From Nitrospirota bacterium (GTDB taxonomy: Bacteria; Nitrospirota; Thermodesulfovibrionia; Thermodesulfovibrionales; Magnetobacteriaceae), in contig JADFXG010000034.1 of the NCBI GenBank assembly GCA_015233895.1, positions 1-33,386 on the forward strand: a DNA stretch of 33,386 bases. The letters run 5' to 3'. The notes under the pieces are model-generated. The model had not been told where the DNA came from. It saw nothing but the letters and a program-made list of their open reading frames with translations, and did not search any database. Shown here one piece after another: positions 2,881 to 33,206 of this stretch; the first letter of the stretch is position 1; every line of letters begins with the position of its first letter. A program made the translations under genes and the position numbers.

Positions 2881-2919
2881 GGTTTTCCTTCTTTATTTAT
2901 TGGGTTATTTCTGTTTAAA

Positions 2920-5340
<2,421 letters not shown>

Positions 5341-5389
5341 TCACCTCTGTGTTACCTGATTATTTTTAAACAACCGATGTCTAAATTTA

Positions 5390-5848: not shown

Positions 5849-5855
5849 CTATAAT

Positions 5856-6776: not shown

Positions 6777-6780
6777 CGCT

Positions 6781-7887
6781 CTACATCCTCACCGGCATAA
6801 TTACGCATCTGTAACGTTCTACACCCTCTTCCATAAACAGAGTGGGGTTTTGGCTGTCCAGAAATTTAATAACAACATTTTCAGTTTCCATGCTTAACAG
6901 CAGCTCAAGCAGGTACCGCGAGTTATAGCCAACACTCAGCGTATCGCCGTCAAATCTGACATCCATGGAATCCCGCGCCTCACCTAATTCTGGATCGTTT
7001 GCAAATATCTCCATCTCATTTTCACTTATATCTATCTTTATGATTTTACTTTTGTCGCGGTTTATCACTGCAACCCTCTTTAGGACCGCTATAAATTCCT
7101 CACGGGCTATTACGGCCGTTTTGTCGTTATTTTTTGGTATCACCTGATCATAGGCCGGGTAGGAACCCTCTATGAGTTTAGTTAGAAATTCTTTTTCAAA
7201 AAGATTAAATCTGATGTGGTTAGCAGATATATCAAACGATATATCACCCTCGATGCCGGTAAGGAATTTCTTTAGCTCATTTACGGTTTTTCGCGGCACT
7301 ATGAGTTTTAATTCATCGCTAAAGGGAACGTCTATGTCAGTTTCAATAGCGGCAAGCCTGTGGCTGTCAGTGCCAACCAGCATCATCTTTTTCTGCTCTC
7401 CAAAAATATGAAACAGAACACCGTTTAGCGTATAACGCGGGTCGGCCTCACCGGCACTATAGAGTGTCTTTTCAATCATGCCAAGCAAATTGCGGGCATC
7501 TATTATGATTTGTTTGTCCCGTTCAATTTCCGGCCACTGAGGATATTCCTCGCTCTCAATACAAGCTATGCGAAAGTAGCTCTTACCGGCTTTAATCGTT
7601 ACCCAATTATTTTCAGTCTCTTCAAAAACAATTTCTCCGGTAATCTCACGTGCTATTTCGTATAGTTTTTTTGCAGGGAGACAGAATTTTCCCGGCTTTT
7701 GCACACTTGCCACCGTTACCGGCTCCTTTATGGCCATATCCAGGTCGGTTGCATATATGGTGCTGCCATCGGCTCCGACACATAACAGAAAATTACTTAG
7801 CACAGGTGTAGTAGCCTTTTTCTCTATGATGTTCTGGATGTCTGAAAGCCTTTTCTGCAGCTCAAAGCTGTCTATTCTAAAATTCAT
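6781..7887 (-). CDS. dnaN: DNA polymerase III sliding clamp, beta subunit
   Basis: DnaN forms the ring that tethers DNA polymerase III and other factors to DNA. The 368-residue protein has the family length and the three-fold clamp architecture. Recognisable pieces are the N-terminal TTPVLSNFLL segment, TDLDMAI, LVGTDSHRLA in the middle domain and the C-terminal CVIMPVRM, part of the partner-binding groove. A strong ribosome-binding site (GGAGGTGGTGA) precedes the ATG at 7885-7887. It lies 22 bases after dnaA and 4 before the histidine-kinase-like gene. The dnaA-dnaN pair is in the usual order, but recF does not follow. Confidence 0.97.
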   Translation of the reverse strand: MNFRIDSFELQKRLSDIQNIIEKKATTPVLSNFLLCVGADGSTIYATDLDMAIKEPVTVASVQKPGKFCLPAKKLYEIAREITGEIVFEETENNWVTIKAGKSYFRIACIESEEYPQWPEIERDKQIIIDARNLLGMIEKTLYSAGEADPRYTLNGVLFHIFGEQKKMMLVGTDSHRLAAIETDIDVPFSDELKLIVPRKTVNELKKFLTGIEGDISFDISANHIRFNLFEKEFLTKLIEGSYPAYDQVIPKNNDKTAVIAREEFIAVLKRVAVINRDKSKIIKIDISENEMEIFANDPELGEARDSMDVRFDGDTLSVGYNSRYLLELLLSMETENVVIKFLDSQNPTLFMEEGVERYRCVIMPVRM

Positions 7888-7909
7888 ATCTCACCACCTC
7901 CACACGGTT

Positions 7910-9241
7910 TTATGGTTTTATTCTGTTTATTAACTGTTCCACTACTTTTCCGAAGTTTTCATCGTTGCCTATTTTACTTTCAACCTGTTTACAAGCATAA
8001 ATAACCGTAGCATGGTCTTTTCCTCCAAATGACTTTCCTATATCGCCAAGGGATAAATCTGTAAGCTGCTTGATAATATACATAGCCACCTGCCTGGGAA
8101 CAGTGATTTCTTTAGTGCGTTTTTTAGCCTTTATGTCTATAGGTTTTATGTTAAAGTATTCACATACCATTTTTTGTATATGCTCGGCACTGATAGGTTT
8201 GAAATCATCAACAAATATGTCCTTTAAGACGTCTTTTGCCATAGCAATGTTAATAGGGTTTCCCGTAAGGTTAGAGTTTGCCGCAAGTTTTATGAGACAG
8301 CCCTCAAGCTCCCTGATGTTAGACCTGATGCGTGAGGCAAGGTAGTAGGCCATATCATCTTGCAGGAAAATCTTCTGGTTTTCCGCTTTTCTTTGTAAAA
8401 TAGCAACCTTAAGCTCAATTGAGGGCGGCTGAATGTCAGCAATCAATCCCATCGTAAAACGCGACTTCAGACGGTCGGTTATCGAGGTCAGCTCCTTAGG
8501 GGGTCTGTCGGCTGAAATTATTATCTGTTTCTGCCTTTCATAGAGAGCGTTAAAAGTGTGAAAAAACTCCTCCTGCGTTTGAGTCTTGTTTGCTATAAAC
8601 TGGACATCGTCAATAAGCAGAGCATCAAGTCCCCTGTACTTGTCCTTTAATTCTCCCATTTTCTCGTGTCTGATGGCTGATACCACCTCATTGGTAAACT
8701 GCTCTGATGAGACGTACATGACAGCAGCATTTGGGTCTCTGTCTATCACCATGTTGCCTATAGCGCTTATCAGGTGCGTCTTACCAAGCCCTACATCGCC
8801 GTATATAAACAGTGGATTATATGTTTTTCCCAAAGACTCTCCAACGGCAAGAGCTGCTGCATGGGCAAACTGGTTACTTGGCCCCACTACAAAGTTCTCA
8901 AACGTATATTTCGGATTAAGATGAATCCCTTTATTGGCTAATCTAGTTCTGCGGGTTTGCATTATAGTGTCTTTTTTTGCAATCTCGCTTGTCTGCGGCT
9001 GATCCACCTTAAAGACAACATTAATCTGTTTTGAAAGCACAGTCTCTAATGCCTTGTTAAACAGTTGCGGGTAATTGTCCTCTATCCATTCCCTGAAAAA
9101 CCTGTTGGGAACAGACAGCACTGCACTGTGATCTTTAATCTCCAAAGGCTTAACGGGTTTAAACCAAAGCTCAAATGCTGCCCCACCTACGGATTCCTGT
9201 AAAACTCCTTGTACCTTCTGCCAAATCTCTTCAATTTCCAT
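7910..9241 (-). CDS. dnaA: Chromosomal replication initiator DnaA
   Basis: DnaA binds 9-base boxes at oriC and unwinds the origin when ATP-bound. The 443-residue protein shows domain I (about 1-80), a short linker, the AAA+ domain with Walker A GDVGLGKTH (148-156) and Walker B ALLIDDVQF, sensor-type segments (TSITDRLKSRF) and the DNA-binding domain IV signature GGKDHATVIYACKQVES. The start at 9239-9241 is fixed by an in-frame stop three codons upstream. No good Shine-Dalgarno lies within 15 bases; the AAGGAG present is about 45 bases upstream. The region before it carries inverted DnaA-box-like sites, so autoregulation is likely. It is the first gene of the block ending in gyrA. Confidence 0.97.
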   Translation of the reverse strand: MEIEEIWQKVQGVLQESVGGAAFELWFKPVKPLEIKDHSAVLSVPNRFFREWIEDNYPQLFNKALETVLSKQINVVFKVDQPQTSEIAKKDTIMQTRRTRLANKGIHLNPKYTFENFVVGPSNQFAHAAALAVGESLGKTYNPLFIYGDVGLGKTHLISAIGNMVIDRDPNAAVMYVSSEQFTNEVVSAIRHEKMGELKDKYRGLDALLIDDVQFIANKTQTQEEFFHTFNALYERQKQIIISADRPPKELTSITDRLKSRFTMGLIADIQPPSIELKVAILQRKAENQKIFLQDDMAYYLASRIRSNIRELEGCLIKLAANSNLTGNPINIAMAKDVLKDIFVDDFKPISAEHIQKMVCEYFNIKPIDIKAKKRTKEITVPRQVAMYIIKQLTDLSLGDIGKSFGGKDHATVIYACKQVESKIGNDENFGKVVEQLINRIKP

Positions 9242-14364: not shown

Positions 14365-17300
14365 TTACCTAACTGCTACACTCCCTTGCATATCTGTGTA
14401 GGCTATAAGGCCACTGCAATTCTTATCCGGATAGAACTCACGCAAAATGCGCAAATACTCTTTTATCTGTGACACGTAGCCTGTTTCATTGTCTGCCCCT
14501 CCGGTTTTATAGTCTATTACGCAGACACTGTCCTTATCAATTACCACCCTGTCCATTCTGAGTGTGACTCCGGAGCTAGTTGTGTACTCCTGTTCATTTT
14601 TTAACACTCTTGATTCCGTATAAATAAAATATGGTTTTATGTCATCCCTGTGTAAAAACCGGAGGAGCAACTCAGCCGTCTCTCCCACATCAAATAAGTT
14701 TCCGTATTCAAGATTTACCATTTCAACAATCCTGCTTAATGTACTTTTAAAATCATCGGATATGAAGTCAACAAAAAAGAGTATTCGGTGGATAAAATCC
14801 CCTCGCTGCTTTTCTCCGATATTTATTGGTGTAAGGTTTACACCAAAGTGATACGGTTTTCTTAATGTGTGAAGTATTGGCAGCACATCAGAAGTGTCTT
14901 CGGAAACCTCTGCGGCTGACACACACTCTCTCTGTCCTGCCTCAGTGCTGCCATCCGGGAAAAGTTCAAACGGATATTTACCTCCATCTGTAGCAAGTAT
15001 CACGTAGAGTTCGCTCTTAGCACGGGTCAGAGAGACGTATAGGGCGTTGAGTTTATTTACAAGCTCTTTGGTTTTCTCCTTTTCGTAGAGATCATTTAAA
15101 GGAGAGTTATCATCATAGTGAGAAATAGCAGCAAGAATCTTTTTATTTAATTTTAAGAGACTTACATCACTATCCCCCTCCAAAATATAATCAAACGGCC
15201 TGTCTTTCTGCCCATACAGGATAACTACAGTGACCGGAAATCCAAGCCCCTTAGACTTATGTACGGTCATCACAGAGACGGCATCCTCAGTCTTTGGCAC
15301 ATCTATATTCCACTCCTGAGATGTACCGTCCCCATGTGCGGCAAAATTAACAAAGTCCCTGAGACTGTTTGTACCGCTCTCTTCAAACGCTTTAATCACC
15401 TCAAGGATTTTTACCAGTGATGCCTCTGAACTCATCTGTGTATGGCCAAATACGTTAAATACACGGTAAATCTCAGTGACAAGGTCATATAGAGGGAAGT
15501 ATCCGGCAGAGTTAAAAAGCTCTTCAAAGAAGCTGCTCCAAAGCTCCGGGTAATCTGCCTGAAAGCACTTATAAAGCGGAGAGCTCTCCCTCCTGTGATT
15601 AAAGAGAAACGTTCGGATTTCATCCAAAGTAATTGTCTGGCCATTAAGAGCCGCCGCACTTTCAAATATCCTGCCGCTTAGAAATGTTGCAAATGAAAGG
15701 TCATCAAGCGGAGAGTCAAGAAAATTAAGAAGAGCAACAACTTCACATGCCGCATTGGTTTTTCTTATATCAAGACTGCTGTATGATATAAACGGGATGG
15801 CCTCAGATTTGCCACTCCGGCTCTCTATGCCTTTTTCGTTAAGCCACGTTGAGATGATGACCACGTCATCGTTTCTCATTGTAAGCACTGCTATGTCTTT
15901 GTATTTATAACCCCTTAATTTTAAGTCATCCAAAATTTCATAGAGTTTTTGTTTTACCGGCTCTGTCTCTGATATTTCATCGCTAATCTGCGGAGAGTTT
16001 ACGGTATCCACTCTGACAAATCCGCAAGAGGATGCACTGCCTGTGTCTTTGGCAGTTTGGGTATAATCTGAAAGGCCACTAAGTTGTGCTGCAAAGTTAT
16101 ATGTCTCATGTTGAGGCATAATGTGCTTAAAAATCTCCTCGTTAAAATCAAGGATGGGCTTTTGCGATCTGAAATTAACGCTGAGTTCCGCCACTCTGTG
16201 CTCGGCAGACAGAAATGGACGCTCCTCCCCACTCTCAGCTTCAAACGATTTCATAATGCTGTAGTCGGCATCCCTGAAGCCATAAATTGCCTGCTTAGTG
16301 TCCCCCACAGCAAAGAGACTCCCCCCCTGTGACAATGAGTTTTCTATCAGAGGGTATAGGTTTTTCCACTGAATCGGGGATGTGTCCTGAAACTCATCAA
16401 TCAGATAGTGATAGATTGTCTCTCCAAGCCTGAAGTACACATCCGGAACAATATCGCCATCAATGTAGAAGGAGAGTTTTCTGCTGATGTCTTCAATAAA
16501 CACCTTACCTTTTTGTTTTTTAGCATGCTGCAGTGTTGCGGCAAAAGCCTCATATGCTCGTATAAACGGGATAAAATACGTGCGGCTGAAGACCTCTGCA
16601 AATTGCCCGATAAGGGACGTAAGGTCTCTCCAGGCCGAGACCGCCTCATCATAGAGTGCTGCCTCCGGGCTTTTTTTAGCAGGTTTTTTAACCGGTGGAT
16701 TTTTTAGTCCCCGATTTATTATGTCTGCAAATTTACCTCTCTGCACGCTCCTTAGTATTTCCCCAAATGAGCTGTTTCCGCTTATTGTAAGCCCCGACTC
16801 TAAGATAAATTCATTAAGTTTTAAAGCGGCGTCTTTTATTTTTCCCTTTATTTTTTCCGCTGCAACCGTATTTCCATAAACAATCTGCACGGACTTCGTT
16901 TTTGAGATTTTTTTGTATATCTTCTTTATTTCATCTAAAATTGTACGCGAGGGATCCCATAGGAACCGGGAATCCTCCGTGCGGTTTTCAATAATTATCT
17001 TTACAATGTCTGAAACCATAGCTCCCTGATGTGTGCCCTCCCTGACACTGCGTAAAAACACCTCAAAGGCATACTCCATGATCTCATCACCATTAAGCAT
17101 GATTTCAAAGTCCGGTTCGTACCCAAGGTCAAGCACCGAGGACTTAAACACCGAGGCCATAAAGCTGTCTATGGTTTTAACCTGAAAGTCTGTATAGTGG
17201 TTTAGTATTTCATCAATCAAAAGACATGCCCGTCTGAGGATTTCCTCCTCCGGCAGGTTTATAATCTCCTTAATTTCTGTGGCTCTTGAATTGTAACCGA

Positions 17301-17535
17301 GGCATATTTCCTTTAGCCACAGGACAATCCGTTGCCGCATCTCTTTAGCAGCATTATTAGAAAATGTAATTGCAAGAATATTCCTGAGGCGGTTTTCAGG
17401 TATCTTACCTGAAAGCACAAACTGCACGTAACGCTTGGTGAGGGTATGGGTTTTACCAGAGCCTGCCGATGCCTTAAGAACGACAACATGAGGAAACACC
17501 TCAGTGTCATCTCGCTTAAGAACGGCATCTGCCAT
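14365..17535 (-). CDS. UvrD-family helicase/PD-(D/E)XK nuclease (AddA/RecB-like)
   Basis: The 1056-residue protein combines an SF1A helicase with a C-terminal nuclease, as in AddA and RecB, which process double-strand ends for recombination and degrade foreign DNA. Helicase motifs in order are Walker A LKASAGSGKTHTL (20-32), LAITFSNNAAKEMRQR, the DExx box YLIDEFQDTS, FAVGDTKQAIYGFRDAD, LSVNFRSQKPIL, VMTVHKSKGLGFP and LYVSLTRAKSELYV. The nuclease core is near the C-terminus: VCVIDYKTG (around 1005) followed by a Q-x3-Y motif in QIKEYLRIL. No addB or recC/recD partner lies in the window. It follows the small lipoprotein gene by 26 bases and may share its transcript. I leave the symbol blank because AddA and RecB are hard to separate by eye. 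Confidence 0.88.
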   Translation of the reverse strand: MADAVLKRDDTEVFPHVVVLKASAGSGKTHTLTKRYVQFVLSGKIPENRLRNILAITFSNNAAKEMRQRIVLWLKEICLGYNSRATEIKEIINLPEEEILRRACLLIDEILNHYTDFQVKTIDSFMASVFKSSVLDLGYEPDFEIMLNGDEIMEYAFEVFLRSVREGTHQGAMVSDIVKIIIENRTEDSRFLWDPSRTILDEIKKIYKKISKTKSVQIVYGNTVAAEKIKGKIKDAALKLNEFILESGLTISGNSSFGEILRSVQRGKFADIINRGLKNPPVKKPAKKSPEAALYDEAVSAWRDLTSLIGQFAEVFSRTYFIPFIRAYEAFAATLQHAKKQKGKVFIEDISRKLSFYIDGDIVPDVYFRLGETIYHYLIDEFQDTSPIQWKNLYPLIENSLSQGGSLFAVGDTKQAIYGFRDADYSIMKSFEAESGEERPFLSAEHRVAELSVNFRSQKPILDFNEEIFKHIMPQHETYNFAAQLSGLSDYTQTAKDTGSASSCGFVRVDTVNSPQISDEISETEPVKQKLYEILDDLKLRGYKYKDIAVLTMRNDDVVIISTWLNEKGIESRSGKSEAIPFISYSSLDIRKTNAACEVVALLNFLDSPLDDLSFATFLSGRIFESAAALNGQTITLDEIRTFLFNHRRESSPLYKCFQADYPELWSSFFEELFNSAGYFPLYDLVTEIYRVFNVFGHTQMSSEASLVKILEVIKAFEESGTNSLRDFVNFAAHGDGTSQEWNIDVPKTEDAVSVMTVHKSKGLGFPVTVVILYGQKDRPFDYILEGDSDVSLLKLNKKILAAISHYDDNSPLNDLYEKEKTKELVNKLNALYVSLTRAKSELYVILATDGGKYPFELFPDGSTEAGQRECVSAAEVSEDTSDVLPILHTLRKPYHFGVNLTPINIGEKQRGDFIHRILFFVDFISDDFKSTLSRIVEMVNLEYGNLFDVGETAELLLRFLHRDDIKPYFIYTESRVLKNEQEYTTSSGVTLRMDRVVIDKDSVCVIDYKTGGADNETGYVSQIKEYLRILREFYPDKNCSGLIAYTDMQGSVAVR

Positions 17536-17561: not shown

Positions 17562-17993
17562 CTACTTGATTGTCAGAACTGTAAACGGGTTATCTTTTAA
17601 AATCTTATCCACTCTGTAAGGAGGTCCGGTAACAACAAAGTCTGCAACCCCGTTTTCGTCTATGTTATTCCCATGATATACCCACTTGCCAGTCCATGAC
17701 ATTTGCACCTGAATAGTGTTGGCTTTAATATCCACCCACTTAGGTGTAAAAGATAAATCGGCTGATGAGAAGTCTGTTGCTGACGCTTTGAAATTAGAAG
17801 AGAAGCCCTCATCGGTTGTGTATCTTCTCATGGCAGCCTCATCTTTTTGGGCATAGGCTGTTTTCAGCAAGTATATCGTCTCTATAACACTCTGTGCAGT
17901 TTGTGATTCATTAGACACAGGTTTTATAGTTTTTTTAGAACAAGCCATAGTTAAGAATAAAGATATTATTGACAGCACAAGTATTTTTTTCAT
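17562..17993 (-). CDS. Small predicted lipoprotein
   Basis: The 143-residue protein starts with a lipoprotein signal peptide: MKK, a hydrophobic stretch, then LTMAC with C18 as the candidate lipidated residue. The -3 threonine is not ideal. The mature part has an SVIETIYLLKTAYAQKDEAAMRRY helix region and later beta strands (IQVQMSWTGKWVYHG, YRVDKILKDNPFTVLTI), recalling NTF2-like folds such as DUF4878-type lipoproteins; that resemblance is a guess. AAGGAG lies nine bases before the ATG. It sits between the HDOD gene (66 bases upstream) and the helicase-nuclease gene. I do not recognise a specific family. Confidence 0.75.
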   Translation of the reverse strand: MKKILVLSIISLFLTMACSKKTIKPVSNESQTAQSVIETIYLLKTAYAQKDEAAMRRYTTDEGFSSNFKASATDFSSADLSFTPKWVDIKANTIQVQMSWTGKWVYHGNNIDENGVADFVVTGPPYRVDKILKDNPFTVLTIK

Positions 17994-18059
17994 TTTAATA
18001 ACTCCTTATAATTTATAATCAAATTAATAGCCTGCGTATTTTTACTTGAAACGGTAAGC

Positions 18060-18956
18060 TTAACCGTTCTCATCAGCTTTCATTGTTTTTGTTGTTTCAT
18101 CAGCGGTAACATTTCTTACTTGCAGGAAAGCCTTCGCCTCGTCAACCTTAACAGAGAGGGTCTCTAAAATTTCGAGACCTTTCTGAGGGGTCAAACCAAG
18201 GCGCTTCCAATCCGTATCGGTAAGAGGCTCCTTAAGCGCAGCCGCTATGTCGTCGTCATAGCCATTAATTTTACAGTAGTAGTTGGCGATGTAAACGACG
18301 GGCACCATTGGCGATTTTTCATTGCCGCCCGATTTGTTGTGATGGTATCGGATAGATTTGACCAGATCAGGCAACAGAGCCCACTTCTCTGCAATCAATG
18401 CTCCAATTTCTGCATGGTCCATGGAAAAGAATTTTTTTTCTTTAACTATTAATTTTTCAAATTCAGTTGTTTTTTTAGCAATATGGAAATAATCCCGTGG
18501 AAAATGTTTTATTAAAAAAATCTTTCCAATGTCGTGAATTAGCCCTGCAATGAAAAACTCCTCCCGTTTAACAGGGTCTGTAACTACGACAGTTGACAGC
18601 AGTTTACAAGCGACAGCAGTGGCAAGGCTGTGTTCCCAGAATCTGTCCACGTTAAAAGAAGGGCCGTGTGAGGGATTAAACGAGGAAAGCACCTCGGCGC
18701 TTAATGCAAGATTCTTGATGGTATTCATGCCAAGAAGGATAATGGCACGGTTTATGGATGTCACCTTCTGCTGGATGCCAAAGTAGGCGGAGTTAATTAA
18801 ATTTAACACCTTTGTGGTAAGGGTTGGATCGAGTTTTACCACCTGAACAAGGTCTGCTGCAGAGGAGCTGTCATTATTAGTAAGAGACACAATCTTTGCG
18901 ATAGTAGGCGACAGTGCCGGAATCTTTTCTATGTATGCTAAAATTTTCTTTTGCAT
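18060..18956 (-). CDS. HDOD-domain signalling protein
   Basis: The 298-residue cytosolic protein is almost entirely one HDOD domain, a relative of HD phosphohydrolases found in bacterial signalling proteins. Visible landmarks are IPALSPTIAKIVSLTNN, LTTKVLNLINSAYFG, INRAIILLGMNTIKNLAL, the HD motif GLIHDIGKIFL (H141-D142), DHAEIGALIAEKWALLPDLV and IRYHHN. Many HDOD proteins lose the HD pair, but it is kept here together with other histidines (H109, H176). A phosphodiesterase activity is therefore possible but unproven. The C-terminal 40 residues are a charged extension. It lies 136 bases after the WD40 kinase and seems to have its own promoter. No cyclic-di-GMP domain (GGDEF, EAL) is fused or nearby. 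Confidence 0.9.
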   Translation of the reverse strand: MQKKILAYIEKIPALSPTIAKIVSLTNNDSSSAADLVQVVKLDPTLTTKVLNLINSAYFGIQQKVTSINRAIILLGMNTIKNLALSAEVLSSFNPSHGPSFNVDRFWEHSLATAVACKLLSTVVVTDPVKREEFFIAGLIHDIGKIFLIKHFPRDYFHIAKKTTEFEKLIVKEKKFFSMDHAEIGALIAEKWALLPDLVKSIRYHHNKSGGNEKSPMVPVVYIANYYCKINGYDDDIAAALKEPLTDTDWKRLGLTPQKGLEILETLSVKVDEAKAFLQVRNVTADETTKTMKADENG

Positions 18957-19010
18957 ATAAGCCTGTTCTTTTTGGGCTACAGCGCAACCACAACCCAGAG
19001 TTCGGAAATG

Positions 19011-19040
19011 AGTATATCAAAAACAGCAGAGTTTTTTCAA
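19011..19040 (-). promoter_or_regulatory. Candidate promoter of the HDOD gene
   Basis: On the minus strand TTGAAA (19035-19040), an 18-base spacer and TATACT (19011-19016) lie about 55 bases before the HDOD start codon. The -35 region falls within the inverted repeat at 19028-19058. Confidence 0.4.
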
Positions 19041-19058
19041 ATTTTTTTAAAAAACTCT
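19028..19058 (-). terminator. AT-rich hairpin after the WD40 kinase gene
   Basis: Ten-base arms AGAGTTTTTT and AAAAAACTCT pair around an 11-base loop. On the minus strand the hairpin is followed by GCTGTTTTTG. It begins 35 bases after the kinase stop, a suitable place for a weak terminator. The stem is mostly A-T, so partial readthrough into the HDOD gene is likely. Confidence 0.45.
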
Positions 19059-19092
19059 TTATAATTAGTTTAATTTGCTGTAAATTCCAGAC

Positions 19093-22000
19093 TTATTTTG
19101 AAAACTTTTTACTTTCAATTATTTTCAATTCTTTTTTTATAACATCATGGGAAATCCAGCCATAACCGACACAGCCAAGTTTATAGAACAGCTCTTCAAG
19201 GTCTTTGTCTTTCCAGTCTGGTTTTCCCCTGCGGGCAAGGCTCCCTGAGACATAAGGCACAAAGGAGGCAAGAAACAGCTCCAGGTATCCGGCTGCCGAG
19301 TCATCATACCGGCCCTCTTTTGTATCATCTATTTCCCAGTCAAGCGTCCATAGCTTTATCTCTCCGTCGTCACCTGCCGAAAAAGCATGTCTGCCATGAC
19401 GGCTCAACAATACCGAGTTTATCCCTAACTGATGCCCCTTAAACACTCGCACGCAGCTTTCCGACCTGATATCCCAAAGCCGTACTGCATTGTCGTTACT
19501 GCCGGAAAGTAAGAACTTGTTATCTGAGCTTATGCTTACTGTGGTAACGCCTGCCGTGTGTCCCTCAAGAGTTTTTACACATTTTCCCAAAGACAGATCC
19601 CACACTCTTATACTCATGTCCTCGCTGCCGGTTACTGCAAGTTTTCCGTCTAAACTTAACGCTACCGTGTTTATTACATCGGTGTGTCCCTCATAAGTGG
19701 CAAGAATTCCTAAAAAGTTAGCCGTTGTCATCTCCCACATTTTAAGTTTTCCATCAGCACAGCCTGTTATAAAAAACCGGTTATCAGCGTTTAAAGAAAC
19801 AGCCATTACAGGGTCAGGATGGCCGTCGTATGTTCTAATAAGCCGCCCTGTGGTGATATCCCAAACCTTTACGGTTTTATCGTCCCCTGAGGTAACTGCC
19901 AAATGGTGATCGTTACTCAGACATACACTGCGTACCACTCCCTCGTGTCCTTTAAGGGCTCTCATCTGTTTACCTTTTTTTATGTCCCAGAAGCTTATGG
20001 TTTTATCCATTGTGCCTGCCACTGCATACAAACCGTCCTCGCTCAGATGTACACTGGTTATGCCGGCAGGGAATCCCTTAAATGTGTTAATTAAATCGCC
20101 GCTTTCTATATCCCAAAGCCGAATGGTTTTATCTATGCTGCCGGTAAGCAGAAGTTTGCTGTGGCTGTCAGCCGAAATTGATGTAACAGCACCGCTGTGT
20201 CCTTTAAACGTGGTACCCTCCCAGCCGCCCACAAATGTGTGGCGGGGGAAACGTAAATACAGCTTCATCCACAGAGTCAGAGCCTCGATGTCACGGCTAA
20301 ACCCACGCTGTGAGCGTGCTTTTCTTATGTGAGACGCTGCTTTCTTAAAATTGCCCTCCGTAAAACGTTTCTTTGCCTCCGTAAGCTCCTGCGAGTAGGC
20401 TGCCATGGCTGAAAATGCCGCCTCGCTCTTTAGCACCTGAGAGAGCATCATAGGGGCACGGAAAGACTCCCTGTTAGAGGAGACCTCCCAGAATTTTACC
20501 AGTTTATCGTTGCCGCAGGTTGCGGCAAATCTGCCATCCTCTGAAAGAGCCACTGCGTTAACTGGCTCCGTGTGTCCTTCAAAGGTACGCATACATCTGC
20601 CAGAGTCAACCGCCCACTGTATCATTGTCTTATCATGGCTTACCGAGACCAACGTCTTACCGGCTGAATCCACAAAAACTCCGCTTACCGCCTCACCATG
20701 ACCGTACATGGTTTTACTGTATATACGAGTGGTTAAGTCCCATAGTTTCACAGTCTTGTCGGCTCCGGCTGAGGCCATTGTCTGGCCGTTTTTACTTACT
20801 GACATAAAATTAACAGCACCGTTATGCCCCTTAAACGTGTGCAGACATCTCAGGCTGGCAACCTCCCACAGGCGTATTGTGCCGTCTTTGCACGCTGAAA
20901 CCACAAGCTTTCCATCCTTTGTCAGATAAACTGAGGTTACGTCCCCTTTGTGTCCGACAAAAGATCTCAGATACGTGCCCGTGCTTGTATCCCATAGTTT
21001 TATTGTTTCATCCGAGCTGCCGGATAAGGGGTTGCGTCCGCCCGGCTCTATAAACACCGAGGTGACTCCCTCCATGTGGCCTTTAAATGTTTGAAAACAG
21101 TAACCGCTTTTAACATCCCACACTCGTACGGTTTTGTCCAGGCTGCCGGAGATTATAAGAGTTGCATCGGGTAGCATATAGGCCGAAAGGATGCCGTCTG
21201 CGTGTCCTGTAAAAGTTTTCAGACATGTTCCTGTTTCTGTATCCCAAAGGCGCAGCGTTTTATCAAGACTGCCCGATACGGCTATCCTGCCGTCAGCGCT
21301 TAAGCCAACGGCGGTTACAGGTTCATCATGGCCTGTAAAGGTTTTCAGGCAGCCCTTTGACCGCCCTTTTTGAGATTCGGCATACACTATTGCATATCTT
21401 ATGTCTTCAAGGTGCGTTATAGTTGGATCTATATCATTAAGGTACTTTAAGGCAAGTGCGCAGTCGTCCCTTTCAAGGTGCACAAGACCTGCCAGGTATT
21501 TCACGATAGGGTTTTCCGGGTGTGAGCGCTGAACCTCCTCCAACAACCTGACAAGTGCGTTATCGGTCATACTTGCTCCCCGCCACTGCGTCAGTCCGAG
21601 GTTAAAGCTGGATTCCGGATGATGGGGCTGAATCCGAAGCGCCTCTGTCCAGAGCCTTTCTGCCTCCTCCTCTCTGCCAAGGTCAAGGAGAGACACCGCT
21701 CTGTTATTTAGGCTGTCGGCTGTTGCCATACTGACCTCAGGAGCCGTACGGGCATAATTTTTGCCGGTTAACTTTTCATATATTTTTATGAGTTCAGAAG
21801 CCACATCAGACATACTATCCGGCCGTTCTATCGGGTTTTCATTAAAGCATCTGGCAAGGAGTTCAGCTAATTCATCAGGCATAGCGGGCAAACTCTTATT
21901 ACTTAGTCCATCAGCCACACTCTCATGATACCACTTAAGAGCCTCCCCGGCCACCGTGCCCGAGGGCCAGGTCACCTCCCCCGTAAACATCACAAGCACT

Positions 22001-22803
22001 GACACCGCCCATGACCAGATATCTGTTTTAAGAGAGAGTTTTTCCTGATTAGCCTGCTCAGGAGAACAAAAAGCCGGCGTCATCCCTCCCGGAGTTACTA
22101 ATTTATTTAAGCCATAGTCTTCAAAACTATCCTGGCCGTATGACATTCCCACAGCTTTGGCAAGCCCAAAGTCAGTCACTTTGGCTATACCCTCTGAGGT
22201 CATCATAACATTAGCCGGCTTTACATCCTGGTGAATAAGCCCTTTTTCGTGGGCATAGTGAAGCCCCCAGGCAAACTGTATCGAAGCATCAAGGATAGCA
22301 TCCAGTGTGTTTAACTTGCCGTCATGAATCCAGTCGTTTAAACTCCCGCCATCCACGTACTCGGCAAAAACCATTGGGACCTCATCCACCTCCCTTACGT
22401 AGTAGCAGCTGACTATGTGCGGATGGAGTCCCAGATTAACCCACGTCTCAGCCTCCCGCTCGAAATTCTCTGACCCCCCCGCTCTTGCCAGCTCCGCCGA
22501 CTTTGGACATTTCACGGCAAGGTCAACATTCCAGCCCTTATGCTTAACCTTATATACCTTGCCCATTCCGCCCTCACCCAAAAGCCCTGACACCTCGTAG
22601 AGGTCTAAAATGACGTCCCCAACGTTCCACGAACAGCCGGAGCCCTTTTCCATGGTCTGCATAGATGCAGAGGACTGCTCAGTCCGGTATTTTTCTATTT
22701 TAAACGTGCTGCCGCATTTTTTACACTTAGCATTTTTGCCAGTCAAAGATGACGACACACTATATTTCGATCCGCAAGTCGGGCAAGCCGTTATGATAGG
22801 CAT
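19093..22803 (-). CDS. Zinc-ribbon Ser/Thr protein kinase with TPR and 14 WD40 repeats
   Basis: The 1236-residue protein begins with a four-cysteine zinc ribbon (CPTC at 7-10, CKKC at 27-30). A Hanks-type kinase domain follows (about 68-345): G-loop LLGEGGMGKVY, lysine K98, HQDVKPAN (D193), DFGLAK (211-216) and FCSPEQ. The HRD arginine is glutamine, so it is a non-RD kinase. TPR-like helices (about 363-480) lead into seven WD40 repeats (about 484-780). A helical linker of about 80 residues then precedes seven more repeats (to about 1160). Typical blades read TFKGHxxxVTSV, then SGSxDKTIRLWD. Two seven-bladed propellers would offer large protein-binding surfaces. No membrane segment is seen. 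It follows the PP2C fusion by 76 bases. Its substrates are unknown; the HDOD and PP2C proteins are candidates. Confidence 0.93.
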   Translation of the reverse strand: MPIITACPTCGSKYSVSSSLTGKNAKCKKCGSTFKIEKYRTEQSSASMQTMEKGSGCSWNVGDVILDLYEVSGLLGEGGMGKVYKVKHKGWNVDLAVKCPKSAELARAGGSENFEREAETWVNLGLHPHIVSCYYVREVDEVPMVFAEYVDGGSLNDWIHDGKLNTLDAILDASIQFAWGLHYAHEKGLIHQDVKPANVMMTSEGIAKVTDFGLAKAVGMSYGQDSFEDYGLNKLVTPGGMTPAFCSPEQANQEKLSLKTDIWSWAVSVLVMFTGEVTWPSGTVAGEALKWYHESVADGLSNKSLPAMPDELAELLARCFNENPIERPDSMSDVASELIKIYEKLTGKNYARTAPEVSMATADSLNNRAVSLLDLGREEEAERLWTEALRIQPHHPESSFNLGLTQWRGASMTDNALVRLLEEVQRSHPENPIVKYLAGLVHLERDDCALALKYLNDIDPTITHLEDIRYAIVYAESQKGRSKGCLKTFTGHDEPVTAVGLSADGRIAVSGSLDKTLRLWDTETGTCLKTFTGHADGILSAYMLPDATLIISGSLDKTVRVWDVKSGYCFQTFKGHMEGVTSVFIEPGGRNPLSGSSDETIKLWDTSTGTYLRSFVGHKGDVTSVYLTKDGKLVVSACKDGTIRLWEVASLRCLHTFKGHNGAVNFMSVSKNGQTMASAGADKTVKLWDLTTRIYSKTMYGHGEAVSGVFVDSAGKTLVSVSHDKTMIQWAVDSGRCMRTFEGHTEPVNAVALSEDGRFAATCGNDKLVKFWEVSSNRESFRAPMMLSQVLKSEAAFSAMAAYSQELTEAKKRFTEGNFKKAASHIRKARSQRGFSRDIEALTLWMKLYLRFPRHTFVGGWEGTTFKGHSGAVTSISADSHSKLLLTGSIDKTIRLWDIESGDLINTFKGFPAGITSVHLSEDGLYAVAGTMDKTISFWDIKKGKQMRALKGHEGVVRSVCLSNDHHLAVTSGDDKTVKVWDITTGRLIRTYDGHPDPVMAVSLNADNRFFITGCADGKLKMWEMTTANFLGILATYEGHTDVINTVALSLDGKLAVTGSEDMSIRVWDLSLGKCVKTLEGHTAGVTTVSISSDNKFLLSGSNDNAVRLWDIRSESCVRVFKGHQLGINSVLLSRHGRHAFSAGDDGEIKLWTLDWEIDDTKEGRYDDSAAGYLELFLASFVPYVSGSLARRGKPDWKDKDLEELFYKLGCVGYGWISHDVIKKELKIIESKKFSK

Positions 22804-22879
22804 ATTTTTATACTCTTTTTCATAAAATGTTTTTTAATGGTATCAGTATGATGTAAAATGATAATCATATCCGGATGGC

Positions 22880-24631
22880 TCACTGAGTTTTCCAGTAGTA
22901 AATCCGCTCCTCCTTATCAAGGCCTTTAAGCGTATAAGAGCCTATGGGCAGAGCTTTAAGTTGTGAAGTGGGGTTAAGGTTACTCCAGAAGGAGTCGGTC
23001 ATAAGTATGAATTCTTTGTGATGGGCGGTCAGCCGTTCATTTACCTTTGGCTCTCTGTGTCTGAGGTCTTCAAGGGAAAAGACAGCGTGTGCGTTTCGTC
23101 CTGTGCGTTCTCCCTCTGCAGTGAGCCGAACTGAACCCCAGTGCAGGGCTATGGATATTTGAACCGGAATCTTAATGTGGCGCAGTATTCCAGGAGAGAG
23201 TTTTAAAGCTGCGCTCAGCGCTGCGTCAGCTGAGCTAAAAATAGCGAAAAACCCATCCCCGGTGCATTTAAGAAAGGCGTGTTTTTCATTCTGAAGTGAT
23301 TTTTCAAGCAACTGGCCTAGAGCCGATATGACTTTGACAAGGTGAGTTTCACCCAGTTTTACAATTCTGGTTGACCCTACTATGTCAACAACTAAAAGTG
23401 CCTCCGTGCGCTCTTCAAAAAACTCACTGGGTGGAATCAGTATGCTGCCCTCGGAGCTGTAAGCCTCATCGAGGAGGTCATCAGCCTGATTTTCGGCACC
23501 GGGTGGAATTATACCAATCCTTGTGCGTCCAACAGCAAACCACGAGGGCAGAGGCAGGCTCACTGCTCCCTTTATACGTTTGCCGTTTAGGTATGTGCCG
23601 TTTCGGCTGCCCAGATCCTCTAAAATCAACTCACCCCCCTCCACCCTGACAACACAGTGGTTCCTTGATATGGTCTTATCCACCTTCAAACACAGGTTAT
23701 TGTTAGAAGACCTTCCTATCGTAAAAGACGGCGCAGTCACAGGTAAGCTAAACTGCGGCGGAGTTTTATCCAGATTTACAACCAAAGCAGCAAAATCCGT
23801 GGTCTCTGAGGTGTCTTTTTCACCTGAGCCGTACTTTTCGGTGTCAGAGATGGTTACGGGAGTAATGTCGCTGTCAGTGTTGCTATCAGAGAGGTAGTCA
23901 GCTATAATCACGGTGATATTGTCAATGCCGCCGCCCTCGATAGCTGCTTTAATCAGTGAGGCACAGGCTTTTTCCGGCTCAGCGAAGTCCATCAGTGTTT
24001 TCCTTATATCATTGTCGCTGACCATTCCGGTCAGTCCGTCGCTACAAAGCAAAAACCTGTCACCGGGCTGTGGCACCATAAATTTGGTTTCGGGCAGCGC
24101 ATCACCTGTCATACCTATACAACGTGTGATTTTTCCTCTGGCCGGATGGCTTTGAATATCCTCCTGGCTGATTTCTCCGGAGTTTATCAACACCTGTATG
24201 ACAGAGTGGTCCATGGTAAGCTGAGTGAGGGAGCCGTGTCTTAGCAGATATGCTCTGCTGTCTCCCATGTGGGCAACAATGGCCTCCCGGTTTCTTATTA
24301 GCAATAAAACAACCGTGGCGCCCATGCCGGAAAGCCCCGGTTTGGATTTACTTATAAGCCGTACGTGTTCATTAAGCTCGGTGAGGGCTGAGGAAATTGT
24401 CTCGATAGCGTCCGGGCCTCTGAGGCTAACGATGTGGTGCATATATTTAATTAAAAGGCCGGGCAGGTTTTCAACGACTTCTTTGCTGGCAAGATCCCCT
24501 GCGGCATGTCCTCCCATACCATCGGATACAATAAACATGCCGTGTTCCGGGTTCATGGACAGGTTGTCCTCATTTCTTTGGCGAACCAGCCCCTTGTCGG
24601 TTAAGCCTGCGAATGTTATCGCTTTATTCAT
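22880..24631 (-). CDS. PP2C phosphatase-FHA-nucleotide cyclase-like fusion protein
   Basis: Three domains lie in 583 residues. The N-terminal PP2C Ser/Thr phosphatase (1-245) keeps its metal ligands: RQRNED (D22), VSDGMGGHAAG (D37), CSDGLTGMVSD (D198) and GGIDN (D237). An FHA domain (about 300-375) follows, with IGRSSNNNL, SRNH and GSRNGTYLNGKRI, which binds phosphothreonine. The C-terminus (about 408-580) resembles a class III adenylate/guanylate cyclase: the metal aspartates are present (VVDIVGS D416, CTGDGFF D459), as is the HWGSV segment. The helix normally carrying NxxxR reads NAHAVF, so the transition-state arginine appears to be missing and it may not be catalytic. The start overlaps the stop of the FHA kinase gene (ATGA) and has GGAGGG upstream, so the two genes are translationally coupled. 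It is the natural antagonist of the flanking kinases. Confidence 0.93.
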   Translation of the reverse strand: MNKAITFAGLTDKGLVRQRNEDNLSMNPEHGMFIVSDGMGGHAAGDLASKEVVENLPGLLIKYMHHIVSLRGPDAIETISSALTELNEHVRLISKSKPGLSGMGATVVLLLIRNREAIVAHMGDSRAYLLRHGSLTQLTMDHSVIQVLINSGEISQEDIQSHPARGKITRCIGMTGDALPETKFMVPQPGDRFLLCSDGLTGMVSDNDIRKTLMDFAEPEKACASLIKAAIEGGGIDNITVIIADYLSDSNTDSDITPVTISDTEKYGSGEKDTSETTDFAALVVNLDKTPPQFSLPVTAPSFTIGRSSNNNLCLKVDKTISRNHCVVRVEGGELILEDLGSRNGTYLNGKRIKGAVSLPLPSWFAVGRTRIGIIPPGAENQADDLLDEAYSSEGSILIPPSEFFEERTEALLVVDIVGSTRIVKLGETHLVKVISALGQLLEKSLQNEKHAFLKCTGDGFFAIFSSADAALSAALKLSPGILRHIKIPVQISIALHWGSVRLTAEGERTGRNAHAVFSLEDLRHREPKVNERLTAHHKEFILMTDSFWSNLNPTSQLKALPIGSYTLKGLDKEERIYYWKTQ

Positions 24632-26133
24632 AATGCACCCTCCAGCGCTCGCTTAAAATCAAGAGCGGTTTTGATTTTAATTTCAGGCTGGTCTATAAGT
24701 GCCTCATCAATCACCTCGGCCAGCTTCTTAGGTATGTTGGGATTCCTCTTCAGTATGGGTACCGGTTTGCTCTGAAGCACTATGTACCATGGGTCTTTGC
24801 CTTTTGGGAAATCTCTGGGAAAACGCCCGGTAAGCATGTAATAAAATGTGGCTGCCATAGCCCAGACATCTGCCTCCGGTTTTGAGTACTTGAAATTTAT
24901 CACCTGCTGTCTGGACATAAAAACAGGGGTGCCGGCAGATGCTCCGGTGCGGGTGTAACCGCTTAAACCTGCAGCATCAAATGCTTTACCCAATCCAAAA
25001 TCTGCTATTTTTGTTAATCTTGTTCCAGAGGCTTCTGTTAAGAATATGTTAGTAGGTTTTATATCTCTGTGAATTAATCCCTTTAGTGTTACAATAGAGG
25101 CGTCAGCCAGTTTGACGTTAGGAATTTCAAGTGTATGGGCATAGTGCAGCCCGTCAAGAGATTGCAGTATCATATTGGTGGCCTCCTCGACACTTAGCCG
25201 TCCACCCTGTGCCATCATTATTTTATCTATACTGCCCCCCTCGCAGTACTCAAGGGTGAAGTAAAAGGTGCCGCGTGAGTTACCGTAGTCAAGCAGTTGC
25301 ACGACGTTTGGGTGTTTTAAGTGTTTGGTGTTTTCCACCTCCCGAAGAAACATCTCCTTGGAGCGCTCATTGACGGCAACCTCTGAGAGCATCACCTTTA
25401 GAGCAACATCTCTGCCGGTCTCTATATGTTTGGCAAGATAGACGGCGCCCATGCCGCCCTTTCCGATTTCTTTTAATATTTTATATCCGTGGATTTCAAG
25501 TGTATCTTTGTCTTTTTCCTCTGCCGGCACAAGGGATTTCACTACCTGCATGGGATCGTCACGGCAGACGGTGCAAAGCCCTGAGGACTGTTCAACACTG
25601 TCTTTACTGAGGGTTTTTCCACAGCCGGTGCATTTGGCCAATGGGGTAACAGTATCCTTTTGAGTTTTATTTTCAGTGCAGGTCTTACAGATATAACTAC
25701 CGTCCTTGGTTTTGTACTCAGCAATATTATCAAAGGGTAAATCAGACCCGCATACTGAACATGTTGGGGATTCATACGTTTTGACTTTAAAAACAGTCGA
25801 ACCGAGTTTAATTTCATCCCCTTTTTTCAGATCGTATTCGGGAAACTCCAGCTGAGATATTTCGTTAATGTCCTGAGTTTTCTGGCGTTGGCCAATCTTC
25901 ATGCCATTGACATAGGTGCCGTTTAAGCTGCCGAAGTCTTTGATTCTTATGCCGGGTGGGTTTATATCCAAAAGACAGTGGTGGCGGGAAATTGTGCGGT
26001 GTTCATCATCATCGGGAAGGCGGGGGCTGCAGTCAACACCCCTGCCAATTATGCAGGTGGTACGCTCCAAAAATTTATATTTTTTACCTTTGAGCTTACC
26101 CTCCGTAACCTCAAGGACGACTTTTGCCGGCAA
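24628..26133 (-). CDS. FHA-zinc-ribbon-Ser/Thr protein kinase
   Basis: The 501-residue protein has an N-terminal FHA domain (about 5-117: IIGRGVD, SRHH at 49-52, GSLNGTYVNG). Two zinc-finger-like cysteine pairs-of-pairs follow (C125/C128 with C149/C152; C168/C171 with C187/C190), then a Hanks-type kinase domain (about 216-500). The kinase has IGKGGMGAVYLAK, K246, HRDIKPTN (D357) and DFGLGK. The usual APE motif is replaced: GTPVFMSRQQ instead of GTPxYMAPEQ. The start is a TTG at 26131-26133, chosen because GGAGGG lies five bases upstream and no in-frame ATG fits. The first gene of the operon, it is preceded by a long leader. The FHA domain could bind its own autophosphorylated threonines or those of the WD40 kinase. 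Confidence 0.92.
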   Translation of the reverse strand: MPAKVVLEVTEGKLKGKKYKFLERTTCIIGRGVDCSPRLPDDDEHRTISRHHCLLDINPPGIRIKDFGSLNGTYVNGMKIGQRQKTQDINEISQLEFPEYDLKKGDEIKLGSTVFKVKTYESPTCSVCGSDLPFDNIAEYKTKDGSYICKTCTENKTQKDTVTPLAKCTGCGKTLSKDSVEQSSGLCTVCRDDPMQVVKSLVPAEEKDKDTLEIHGYKILKEIGKGGMGAVYLAKHIETGRDVALKVMLSEVAVNERSKEMFLREVENTKHLKHPNVVQLLDYGNSRGTFYFTLEYCEGGSIDKIMMAQGGRLSVEEATNMILQSLDGLHYAHTLEIPNVKLADASIVTLKGLIHRDIKPTNIFLTEASGTRLTKIADFGLGKAFDAAGLSGYTRTGASAGTPVFMSRQQVINFKYSKPEADVWAMAATFYYMLTGRFPRDFPKGKDPWYIVLQSKPVPILKRNPNIPKKLAEVIDEALIDQPEIKIKTALDFKRALEGAL

Positions 26134-26286
26134 AACGCCCTCCGTATGATTATTAATTAATAAAATTGCTGACGCTAACCCGGTTAATTAACCCCTGCTG
26201 CCGTTTTTTAATTGTGCGCTTCTCCATGAATACCCCTTCAGCAGTCAGCGGTTGCCAGAGATAGCGCTTTCATTTCACCACGTCAG
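26134..26286 (-). promoter_or_regulatory. Structured 5' leader of the kinase/phosphatase operon
   Basis: The roughly 145-base leader between promoter and TTG start contains several inverted repeats. A nine-base stem with one bulge pairs 26216-26224 with 26258-26267 (GCGCTTCTC against GAGATAGCGC). CTGCTG (26195-26200) can pair with CAGCAG (26239-26244), and GCTGAC (26168-26173) with GTCAGC (26244-26249). GGTTAATTAACC (26182-26193) and a 14-base AT palindrome (26150-26163) are self-complementary. The overlapping pairings suggest alternative folds. I do not recognise a known riboswitch class. Confidence 0.4.
26153..26227 (-). CDS. Possible 24-residue leader peptide
   Basis: An ATG at 26225-26227 with AAGGGG five bases upstream opens a 24-codon frame (MEKRTIKKRQQG and so on) that ends at TAA 26153-26155, 19 bases before the FHA kinase start. 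Its ribosome-binding site is inside the loop of the leader hairpin. The peptide is basic and has no recognisable relatives. It could be a regulatory upstream ORF or chance. Confidence 0.25.
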   Translation of the reverse strand: MEKRTIKKRQQGLINRVSVSNFIN

Positions 26287-26316
26287 ACTATAGCAAAGTC
26301 ACACTGTTTATGTCAA
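26287..26316 (-). promoter_or_regulatory. Promoter of the kinase/phosphatase operon
   Basis: On the minus strand TTGACA (26311-26316), an 18-base spacer and TATAGT (26287-26292) form a good sigma-70-type promoter. Transcription would start near 26280, giving the long leader. Confidence 0.65.
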
Positions 26317-30290: not shown

Positions 30291-33206
30291 TTGGGAGAGG
30301 ATGTAAAAGTATATATTTCTTCTACGTATGAAGACCTGAAAGACTACAGGGATGCCGTTATGAAAGCACTACGTAAGATAGAAGCCCAACATGTAAACAT
30401 GGAGGATTACTATGCGAAAGATGACCGCCCTGTAGATGTATGCCTTGCTGATGTTGCTAAATGTGATATATATGTCGGGATATTTGCCCGGCGTTATGGA
30501 TTTATTCCCGATGATTACACTCAATCAATTACAGAGCTTGAATACAGAAAGGCTGTGGAGTTAAATAAACCGACTTTCAATTTTTTACTTAAAGATGAAG
30601 TTGACTGGCCTAATCAATACTGTGCTATTGACAATGATAAAAGATGGCTTAATAAGCTTAAAGACGAACTTAAAGGGAAAAAGACAGTTGCATGGTTTAC
30701 AGGTTGCCATGATCTTGCTCAGGAGGTTATGGCTGCTGTTGCAGGACATCAAAAAAAAATAATCAGACTTCAAATAGGAAAAGGCATGAGCGACCAGTTT
30801 GCAAATCTGGGCGTTGCCGATACCCCCGAAAAGAAAGCTGCCATAGAGGATGTCTTAGTTGCAAGTAAAGAAAAAATGTGGCAAAGCTCTAATAGACAGC
30901 TACAAACGTGGTGTGAACCTATTCCTGTACCGCTTCCCAAACTCAGGGGTACATTTGTAGGACGTGAAACTGAGCAAGAAACACTCCTCCACTGTCTTAA
31001 TTACACAGATAAACGGCTTGTGGTTATCATAGCCCCGGGTGGGTATGGCAAAACGGAGCTAACCACAAAGGTTCTCAGAGAAATCGCCCCCAAAACGACT
31101 ATAACAAACAAAGACATCCAAGGGATATTATATCTAAGGTGTAGTATTGCCGGTGACGTCAATATGGGTACTGTATTTACCGAGGCCGGAAAGATTGCAG
31201 GAACAGTAGAGGCATTTTTTAACGTTTATAAAAACAGGGAAATATCAAACGCAAAAAGACTGGAATACTTTTTTAAAGAACTTAGTATCATCGGCAATGT
31301 CTGGATAGTCCTGGATAATTTTGAAGACCTGCTTGACGCCGATGATACTATAAAAGACGCAGAGCTTAGGGAGTTTTTGGAAACAGCCGTATCAATTGAT
31401 CACACCATCAGAATAATAATTACGAGTCGTGTGTTGCCAAAATTTAAGGGAGACCGCTTAGTAGAAAAGATAGATTTAAGTGAAGGGTTGCCGGAGGAAA
31501 AGGCTGTTGAGTATCTCAGAAAAGAAGGGGCTGAGTACGGCCTTAGAGATGAGGATAAAAGCATACTGTTAGCCTTTGTGAGACGTGTCCATCGTATTCC
31601 CAAAGCCCTTGAATCAGGAATTGGCTACCTTTCCGAACATTTTCCTGGTATAAAACTTAAAGATATTCTTGCAAATGACGGTATATTTTTAGATTTTGAT
31701 AAACACGACCATAAAGAGGGATTAAAGAGTCTTATTATGGAGCAGATTAAACGGTTACATCCCAACTTACAGCTTGTTTTGTCTGTTCTATCTATTTTTT
31801 CAAAGCCTACACCTCAGGAGGCGCTGCGTTACATGCTTCAGGGAATGAGTTATGTTGAATTAGCACAAAATCTGACACGTCTTGAAAGAAACCGGCTAAT
31901 AACTCACAACAACGGCAATTATGACATGCACCCCGTGGTACGGGAACTTGTTTACGATATGATTCCACAAAATACGCTGTCTTCTAATGAAGACGCTGTG
32001 GGCAACAATGGAAAGCCCCCCATGTTTAGCAAAGCTGGGCTGCATATAAAAGCGGCAGAGTTTTTTGAAAATATCAGAAAGCCGGAAAGTGATTGGAAAA
32101 CCATTGACGATCTTGAGCCGCAACTTCAGGAAATTTATCATCAAATACGTGCCGAAAATTATGAAGCAGCAGCAAGGATGTTAAACATAATAGACTTTAA
32201 CTACTTACGGCTCTGGGGGTATCATGGAATTGTCATTGAGTCGCGCCAACAATTTATCGGGAAATTACAAAACAAGGAGCTTGTTGGCATGAATTTTGGT
32301 CGTCTTGGTTCATCATACTGGAATATTGGCCGTGCGAGCGAGTCCATTAAGTTTACAAAACAGGCGCTTCAAATTGCTATGGACAATAACGACAAAATAC
32401 TGATTAGTGCCTCGTTGGGTAACCTCGGTATTGCCTATTACGACATGGGTGAAACCACTAAAGCAATTGATTACGACGAGAAGGCTCTGGCGATAGCCAA
32501 AGAGATTGGAAACAGAAAGGGTGAAGGAGTTGACCTTGGCAATCTTGGTGACGTGTATCTTGCTTTGGGTGAAATCAGTAAAGCAATTGATTACTATAAA
32601 CAAGCAATAGAGATATCCAAAGGTATTGGAGACAGGCGCAATGAAGGAGATACCCTTGGCTGCCTAGGCAATGCCTATTTTAGTTTAAACGATACTGAGG
32701 CAGCAGTTAAATATAGCCTTGAAGCGCTTAAAATCGGAAAGAAAATCGAAACTCCCTTAATAATTACGAAGGTGCTTACTCAGATTGCCTATACTTATCA
32801 ATATGATGGCAATTTAGTGAATGCTGAAAAGTATTATAGAGAATCACTGGAATATGACTTTCCAGTAAATACATGCCATAGTTTGGTTTATCTTGGCGTA
32901 CTTTTACTTGAAAAGAAACAGACAGTTGAGGCTCAGGATTTTATAGACCGTGGAATTACAATTTGCAGGGATATTCTTGAAAAAACGCCAAAACGCTTTT
33001 CGCAGCTTTATACTTTGGCGCTTGCGCTTCTATCTAAAGGAAATGTAACGGAAGCACTTGAAATGTATAAAGAAGCTATTGCAACATGCCCGGCAAAAGG
33101 AGTTTTACAAAGACAGCTAATGACTTTAGATTTACTTGACAGGGCAGTACCGGAATGCCACGGGGTTGACGAGGCTCAGAGGCTCCTGACAGAGGCTCAG
33201 GCATAA
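30291..33206 (+). CDS. DUF4062-STAND NTPase-TPR protein, NLR-like
   Basis: The 971-residue protein has an N-terminal DUF4062 domain (about 5-105: VKVYISSTYEDLKDYRDAV, CDIYVGIFARRYGFIP, SITELEYRKAVE). A STAND-type NTPase follows, with FVGRETEQE (222-230), P-loop APGGYGKTE (248-256), Walker B VWIVLDNFED (D342) and RIIITSR (374-380). A winged-helix-like region comes next, then TPR repeats (from about 675: LGNLGIAYYDMGETTKAIDY, LGNLGDVYLALGEISKAIDY and others). The start is TTG 30291, with AGGAGA ten bases upstream and an in-frame stop before it. STAND proteins with sensing repeats and an N-terminal effector often act in phage defence or signalling; DUF4062 is a predicted TIR-like effector or adaptor. 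No partner gene is visible and the gene stands alone. Confidence 0.9.
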   Translation: MGEDVKVYISSTYEDLKDYRDAVMKALRKIEAQHVNMEDYYAKDDRPVDVCLADVAKCDIYVGIFARRYGFIPDDYTQSITELEYRKAVELNKPTFNFLLKDEVDWPNQYCAIDNDKRWLNKLKDELKGKKTVAWFTGCHDLAQEVMAAVAGHQKKIIRLQIGKGMSDQFANLGVADTPEKKAAIEDVLVASKEKMWQSSNRQLQTWCEPIPVPLPKLRGTFVGRETEQETLLHCLNYTDKRLVVIIAPGGYGKTELTTKVLREIAPKTTITNKDIQGILYLRCSIAGDVNMGTVFTEAGKIAGTVEAFFNVYKNREISNAKRLEYFFKELSIIGNVWIVLDNFEDLLDADDTIKDAELREFLETAVSIDHTIRIIITSRVLPKFKGDRLVEKIDLSEGLPEEKAVEYLRKEGAEYGLRDEDKSILLAFVRRVHRIPKALESGIGYLSEHFPGIKLKDILANDGIFLDFDKHDHKEGLKSLIMEQIKRLHPNLQLVLSVLSIFSKPTPQEALRYMLQGMSYVELAQNLTRLERNRLITHNNGNYDMHPVVRELVYDMIPQNTLSSNEDAVGNNGKPPMFSKAGLHIKAAEFFENIRKPESDWKTIDDLEPQLQEIYHQIRAENYEAAARMLNIIDFNYLRLWGYHGIVIESRQQFIGKLQNKELVGMNFGRLGSSYWNIGRASESIKFTKQALQIAMDNNDKILISASLGNLGIAYYDMGETTKAIDYDEKALAIAKEIGNRKGEGVDLGNLGDVYLALGEISKAIDYYKQAIEISKGIGDRRNEGDTLGCLGNAYFSLNDTEAAVKYSLEALKIGKKIETPLIITKVLTQIAYTYQYDGNLVNAEKYYRESLEYDFPVNTCHSLVYLGVLLLEKKQTVEAQDFIDRGITICRDILEKTPKRFSQLYTLALALLSKGNVTEALEMYKEAIATCPAKGVLQRQLMTLDLLDRAVPECHGVDEAQRLLTEAQA

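Follow-up and report, generated by a model that had tools for sequence, protein, structure and literature searches.

A conserved kinase–phosphatase cassette of magnetotactic Nitrospirota carrying a probable pseudocyclase domain

Introduction

Which of the signalling genes clustered in this DNA belong together, and what might a cyclase-like domain be doing at the end of a Ser/Thr phosphatase? The window, by which we mean the whole stretch of 33,386 nt that was analysed, comprises positions 1-33,386 (forward strand) of contig JADFXG010000034.1 in assembly GCA_015233895.1, from a Nitrospirota bacterium of the Magnetobacteriaceae. A sequence-only reading had proposed that a promoter and a long leader drive an operon of two Ser/Thr kinases, a phosphatase fused to FHA and cyclase-like domains, and an HDOD protein, acting as a self-contained switch or as a stress/phage-sensing system. 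Near relatives named in a species scan are Nitrospirae MAGs, Ca. Magnetobacterium casense and Ca. Magnetominusculus. Magnetochrome domains are present in the source genome, which is therefore very probably magnetotactic. Pseudokinases are well known; a family-wide fusion of a probable pseudocyclase with a Ser/Thr phosphatase would be a clean case of dead cyclases gaining regulatory roles. Magnetotactic Nitrospirota, in which signalling has scarcely been studied, would also gain a defined phosphorylation module whose partners can be tested.

Results and discussion

Gene layout and cassette membership

The four open reading frames and their domains are located as first described, all on the (−) strand: the FHA-kinase (24628-26133, 501 aa, TTG start), the PP2C-FHA-cyclase-like protein (22880-24631, 583 aa), the WD40-kinase (19093-22803, 1236 aa) and the HDOD protein (18060-18956). 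At this locus the start codon of the phosphatase overlaps the stop codon of the FHA-kinase by 4 nt. The same overlap was found in 13 of 14 readable copies, the remaining copy having 1 nt, and the two genes are paired in all 14 family genomes where both are assembled. Of 19 family genomes, 16 have the phosphatase itself; the assemblies of G206 and G207 are incomplete, and G152 lacks all three cassette genes despite a completeness of 99%. The WD40-kinase lies downstream of the phosphatase in 12 of the 16 genomes, with a gap of 10-96 nt; in G208 and G209 the contig starts within the phosphatase gene. Since the WD40-kinase is unlinked to the other two genes in all four genomes of genus g99, its claim to membership is weaker than theirs. 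The genes flanking the cassette vary from genome to genome, thus the constant unit is the cassette. Values of dN/dS between 0.06 and 0.10 across the three genes indicate strong purifying selection.

The HDOD gene was rejected as a fourth member of the operon. Its orthologues elsewhere are grouped, away from the cassette, with homologues of the next two genes in the window, a small lipoprotein-like gene (17562-17993, (−)) and a UvrD/RecB-like gene (14365-17535, (−)). In G079 about 65 kb separate this group from the cassette, in G096 the two are on different contigs, and the group is also found in G201 and G198. HDOD sits beside the cassette only in the source genome and the near-identical G209, and it has a separate promoter-like site at 19040-19011. 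The earlier inclusion of HDOD in the operon is therefore not borne out, and we regard the gene as a neighbour. The co-occurrence check suggested with that reading, which we ran, gave a divided answer: the three-gene core is not scattered, but the HDOD homologues stand apart from it.

In a search of the phylum (198 genomes) full-length matches were confined to this family. A scan of 84,980 species, using patterns derived from one sequence with which distant relatives could be missed, returned this group and one unrelated PP2C. As far as searched, the three-gene switch is specific to this family. No published description of the cassette was found in the open literature. The constant set in magnetotactic Nitrospirota is thus the FHA-kinase, the PP2C-FHA-cyclase-like protein and the WD40-kinase, and it looks like an internal on/off switch.

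Promoter and leader

A putative promoter, TTGACA-18 nt-TATAGT with an extended −10 element (TTTGCTATAGT), lies at 26287..26316 on the (−) strand; with 11 of 12 positions matched it scores highest in the region. TTGACA at exactly 18 nt from TATAGT recurs in 12 of the 14 regions upstream of FHA-kinase genes, against a chance rate of 0.002 per upstream region (Markov-resampled). The promoter proposed earlier is thereby upheld, and it is predicted to be a conserved promoter of the sigma-70 type. The long leader fared differently as an element. The distance from the −35 hexamer to the start codon ranges from 64 to 222 nt among relatives, alignment within the genus is limited to roughly 85 nt adjoining the start codon, no Rfam family matched the leader, and it folds no better than its shuffles (z −0.28). 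A riboswitch or conserved RNA was rejected on the variable length and the missing Rfam and folding signals.

Kinases and phosphatase

The FHA-kinase, for which 13 of 14 copies use a TTG start, begins with an FHA domain (about 26112-25867, (−)), followed by two zinc-ribbon-like CxxC pairs (25761-25564, (−)) and a Hanks kinase domain (25485-24694, (−); GKGGMG, VALK, HRDIKPTN, DFG). The TRTG motif of its activation loop (T394/T396) is invariant among copies. The WD40-kinase has an N-terminal CxxC zinc ribbon, a Hanks kinase domain (22599-21811, (−)) and 14 WD repeats, each about 42 residues long, in two runs of seven (about 21351-20473 and 20220-19333, (−)) with a linker between; this pattern would fit two seven-bladed propellers. 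Both kinases score above the PF00069 cut-off and keep the glycine loop, the catalytic Lys, H-x-D-x-K-x-x-N and DFG; the catalytic motif of the WD40-kinase is HQD or HRD, varying by genome. Two differently built Ser/Thr kinases are present, as had been claimed, and their catalytic motifs are intact.

The phosphatase consists of a PP2C domain (about 24631-23897, (−)), an FHA domain (about 23785-23504, (−)) and the cyclase-homology domain. It scores above the Pfam cut-off for PP2C and gives 224.8 bits against NCBIfam NF033484 (PP2C, Stp1/IreP; cut-off 230). The metal-binding residues D37, D198 and D237 are invariant in 12 sequences. The phosphothreonine pockets of the cassette's two FHA domains (R31, S49, R50, H51, N71 and R307, S322, R323, H325, N344) are likewise invariant. 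None of the three cassette proteins has a hydrophobic or membrane segment, and all three are predicted to be cytosolic.

The cyclase-homology domain

The cyclase-homology domain occupies 22883..23449 on the (−) strand. Its score against Pfam, 14.4 bits, is below the cut-off of 21.9. The AlphaFold model of the full-length phosphatase was poor (pLDDT 65), and the structure search was therefore limited to this domain, which gave a pLDDT of 89 when modelled alone (14 sequences). The top structural match of the model was Rv1900c (1ybu_B; Z 20.1, rmsd 2.1 over 158 residues). The label "cyclase-like" thus falls short by sequence and is vindicated by the model, in which the predicted fold is that of a class III cyclase. 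Here, as in all 17 copies of the cassette domain, the two metal aspartates and the Lys are unchanged, the base-recognising Asp is replaced by Glu, the transition-state Asn by His and the Arg by Ser. The nearest sibling, a HEAT-repeat cyclase (HEAT-CHD) of the same genomes, keeps Asp, Asn and Arg in 7 of 7. Within the genus, the cyclase domain is the most constrained part of the protein, with a dN/dS of about 0.02 compared to 0.09-0.10 for PP2C; it is therefore functional, but probably not in ordinary cyclase chemistry. Cyclases regarded or predicted as active, namely Rv1900c and its relatives, can have His in place of Asn and Glu in place of Asp, and Lys-Glu pairs are present in mycobacterial cyclase-like proteins (PMC4886424). 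Because the His and Glu changes occur in these atypical mycobacterial proteins, the replacement of Arg by Ser is the main argument for lost activity. The domain shares its fold, the metal aspartates and the His at the Asn position with Rv1900c-type class III cyclases, and differs from them in Ser for Arg and in its fusion to PP2C-FHA. Judged by its residues, it is probably a pseudocyclase.

We note a HEAT-repeat protein in the source genome (L134, 2109-4695, on G000:C5) whose class III cyclase domain looks intact and whose gene adjoins a cNMP-binding gene.

Proposed mechanism

Our overall reading, which we put at about even strength, is that of a cytosolic threonine phosphorylation switch in which the phosphatase carries a probable pseudocyclase as a regulatory domain. 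From the domains and conserved residues we infer the following mechanism. The FHA-kinase would autophosphorylate the TRTG motif of its activation loop, phosphorylate the WD40-kinase, or both. The FHA domain of the phosphatase would dock on such phosphothreonines and bring PP2C to them, allowing it to reset the phosphorylation of the kinases; on this reading the FHA domains would target this kinase rather than other proteins. The WD40-kinase, with its two putative propellers, may serve as scaffold or as output kinase. The pseudocyclase domain would make no cyclic nucleotide; it may instead dimerise and bind a purine nucleotide, setting the activity of the phosphatase. We suggest only tentatively that purine nucleotide in the dead cyclase site gates the phosphatase; the pseudocyclase would then have become a nucleotide sensor controlling how far the two partner kinases are phosphorylated. 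The self-contained writer/reader/eraser switch of the sequence-only reading therefore survives without HDOD: the kinase and phosphatase genes stay linked amid changing flanks, and none of the key residues for catalysis or phosphothreonine binding has been lost.

Alternative explanations

The C-terminal domain might instead be catalytically active as an atypical, Rv1900c-type cyclase, in which case the cassette would couple threonine phosphorylation to cyclic nucleotide production. The invariant metal aspartates and Lys, the His that it shares with its best structural match and the mycobacterial Lys-Glu pairs (PMC4886424) are all consistent with this. We nevertheless consider it rather doubtful, as Ser replaces in every copy an Arg that the HEAT-CHD sibling keeps, and no cNMP-binding gene adjoins the cassette, unlike the HEAT-CHD gene, which has one directly upstream in the two genomes examined. 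In an improbable variant, the phosphatase and the HEAT-repeat cyclase would together form a heterodimeric cyclase, to which the phosphatase contributes the metal-binding half. The cassette domain does retain the metal half and has lost the Asn/Arg half, class III cyclases act as dimers with shared sites (PMC4886424), and HEAT-CHD is found in 7 of 7 family genomes searched; these include G152, which lacks the cassette, and the residue set of HEAT-CHD is complete, thus it needs no partner.

The remaining explanations concern the process served rather than the chemistry of the domain. Control of magnetosome formation or magnetotaxis is quite improbable: magnetochrome domains occur in 17 of 19 family genomes and the cassette in most, yet this overlap weighs little because each trait is typical of the family as a whole. 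Magnetochrome domains are also present in G152, which lacks the cassette, and no recognised magnetosome gene adjoins the cassette. An anti-phage defence system with kinases is very improbable indeed. The PADLOC kinase models PD-T4-6 and mad6, for which no cut-offs are given, match both kinases, but they match Hanks kinase domains generally. The cassette is near-universal in one family and under strong purifying selection, and no recognised defence genes adjoin it in the genomes seen. On these grounds the stress/phage-sensing idea put forward earlier finds no support.

Relation to known systems

The phosphorylation switch that we favour has a close counterpart in a kinase-PP2C-FHA triad of Nitrospirota (e.g. 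L028, L034; L136 in G132, L116 in G152), in which writer, eraser and reader are likewise neighbours. In the triad FHA is a separate gene, and there is no cyclase domain or WD40-kinase, whereas in the cassette the kinase and the phosphatase each carry a fused FHA domain. Besides occurring elsewhere in the phylum, the triad is found along with the cassette in this family (f1), and the two lie side by side in G132; the cassette looks like a fused, elaborated version of the triad. In mycobacteria PknA/PknB, PstP and FhaA/FhaB place kinase, PP2C and FHA in a single operon. The cassette differs from that system in having no PASTA domain, membrane anchor or adjoining cell-wall genes. In the threonine phosphorylation pathway of the type VI secretion system (T6SS), kinase, PP2C and FHA reader (PpkA, PppA, Fha) act on one pathway (PMC3953482, PMC5995506); the cassette has the same three elements, in proteins without a membrane segment. 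The T6SS sheath gene PF05943 gave no match in the source genome, while an E. coli control matched, and phosphorylation control of a T6SS is excluded for this genome. The WD40/TPR Ser/Thr kinases of Planctomycetota also have a kinase domain followed by long WD40 arrays, and they are mostly membrane proteins with the WD40 part predicted outside (PMC11032199). The cassette kinase shares this order and differs in lacking a membrane segment and in having 14 repeats and a zinc ribbon.

Other loci

Elsewhere in the window, gyrA-, gyrB-, dnaN- and dnaA-like genes lie at 451-9241 (−), with CheD and histidine-kinase genes between gyrB and dnaN; this region is likely near the replication origin. At 30291-33206 (+) a DUF4062, AAA and TPR protein has a STAND-like layout, and its PADLOC matches are to generic TPR only.

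Related kinases are found at other loci. In the source genome a paralogous FHA-kinase directly follows motA-motB-like genes and a 122-aa gene that has no Pfam match (L106, 6485-7978 and 8020-8388, in G000:C3:202000-216000), with fliD- and fliS-like genes nearby. A related FHA-kinase in G079 is near the same genes. Phosphorylation control of the flagellar motor by the L106 kinase is possible. A second type of locus, conserved in several genomes, combines an FHA-kinase, a small lipoprotein-like gene and a WD40-kinase of about 1,500 residues without a phosphatase (L105, 6554-13131, G000:C3; L112, 6007-12805, G079). In G209 a further FHA-kinase (48% identical) precedes two very large WD40-kinases, which are 1449 and 1704 aa long (L107, 6804-18037, G209:C277).
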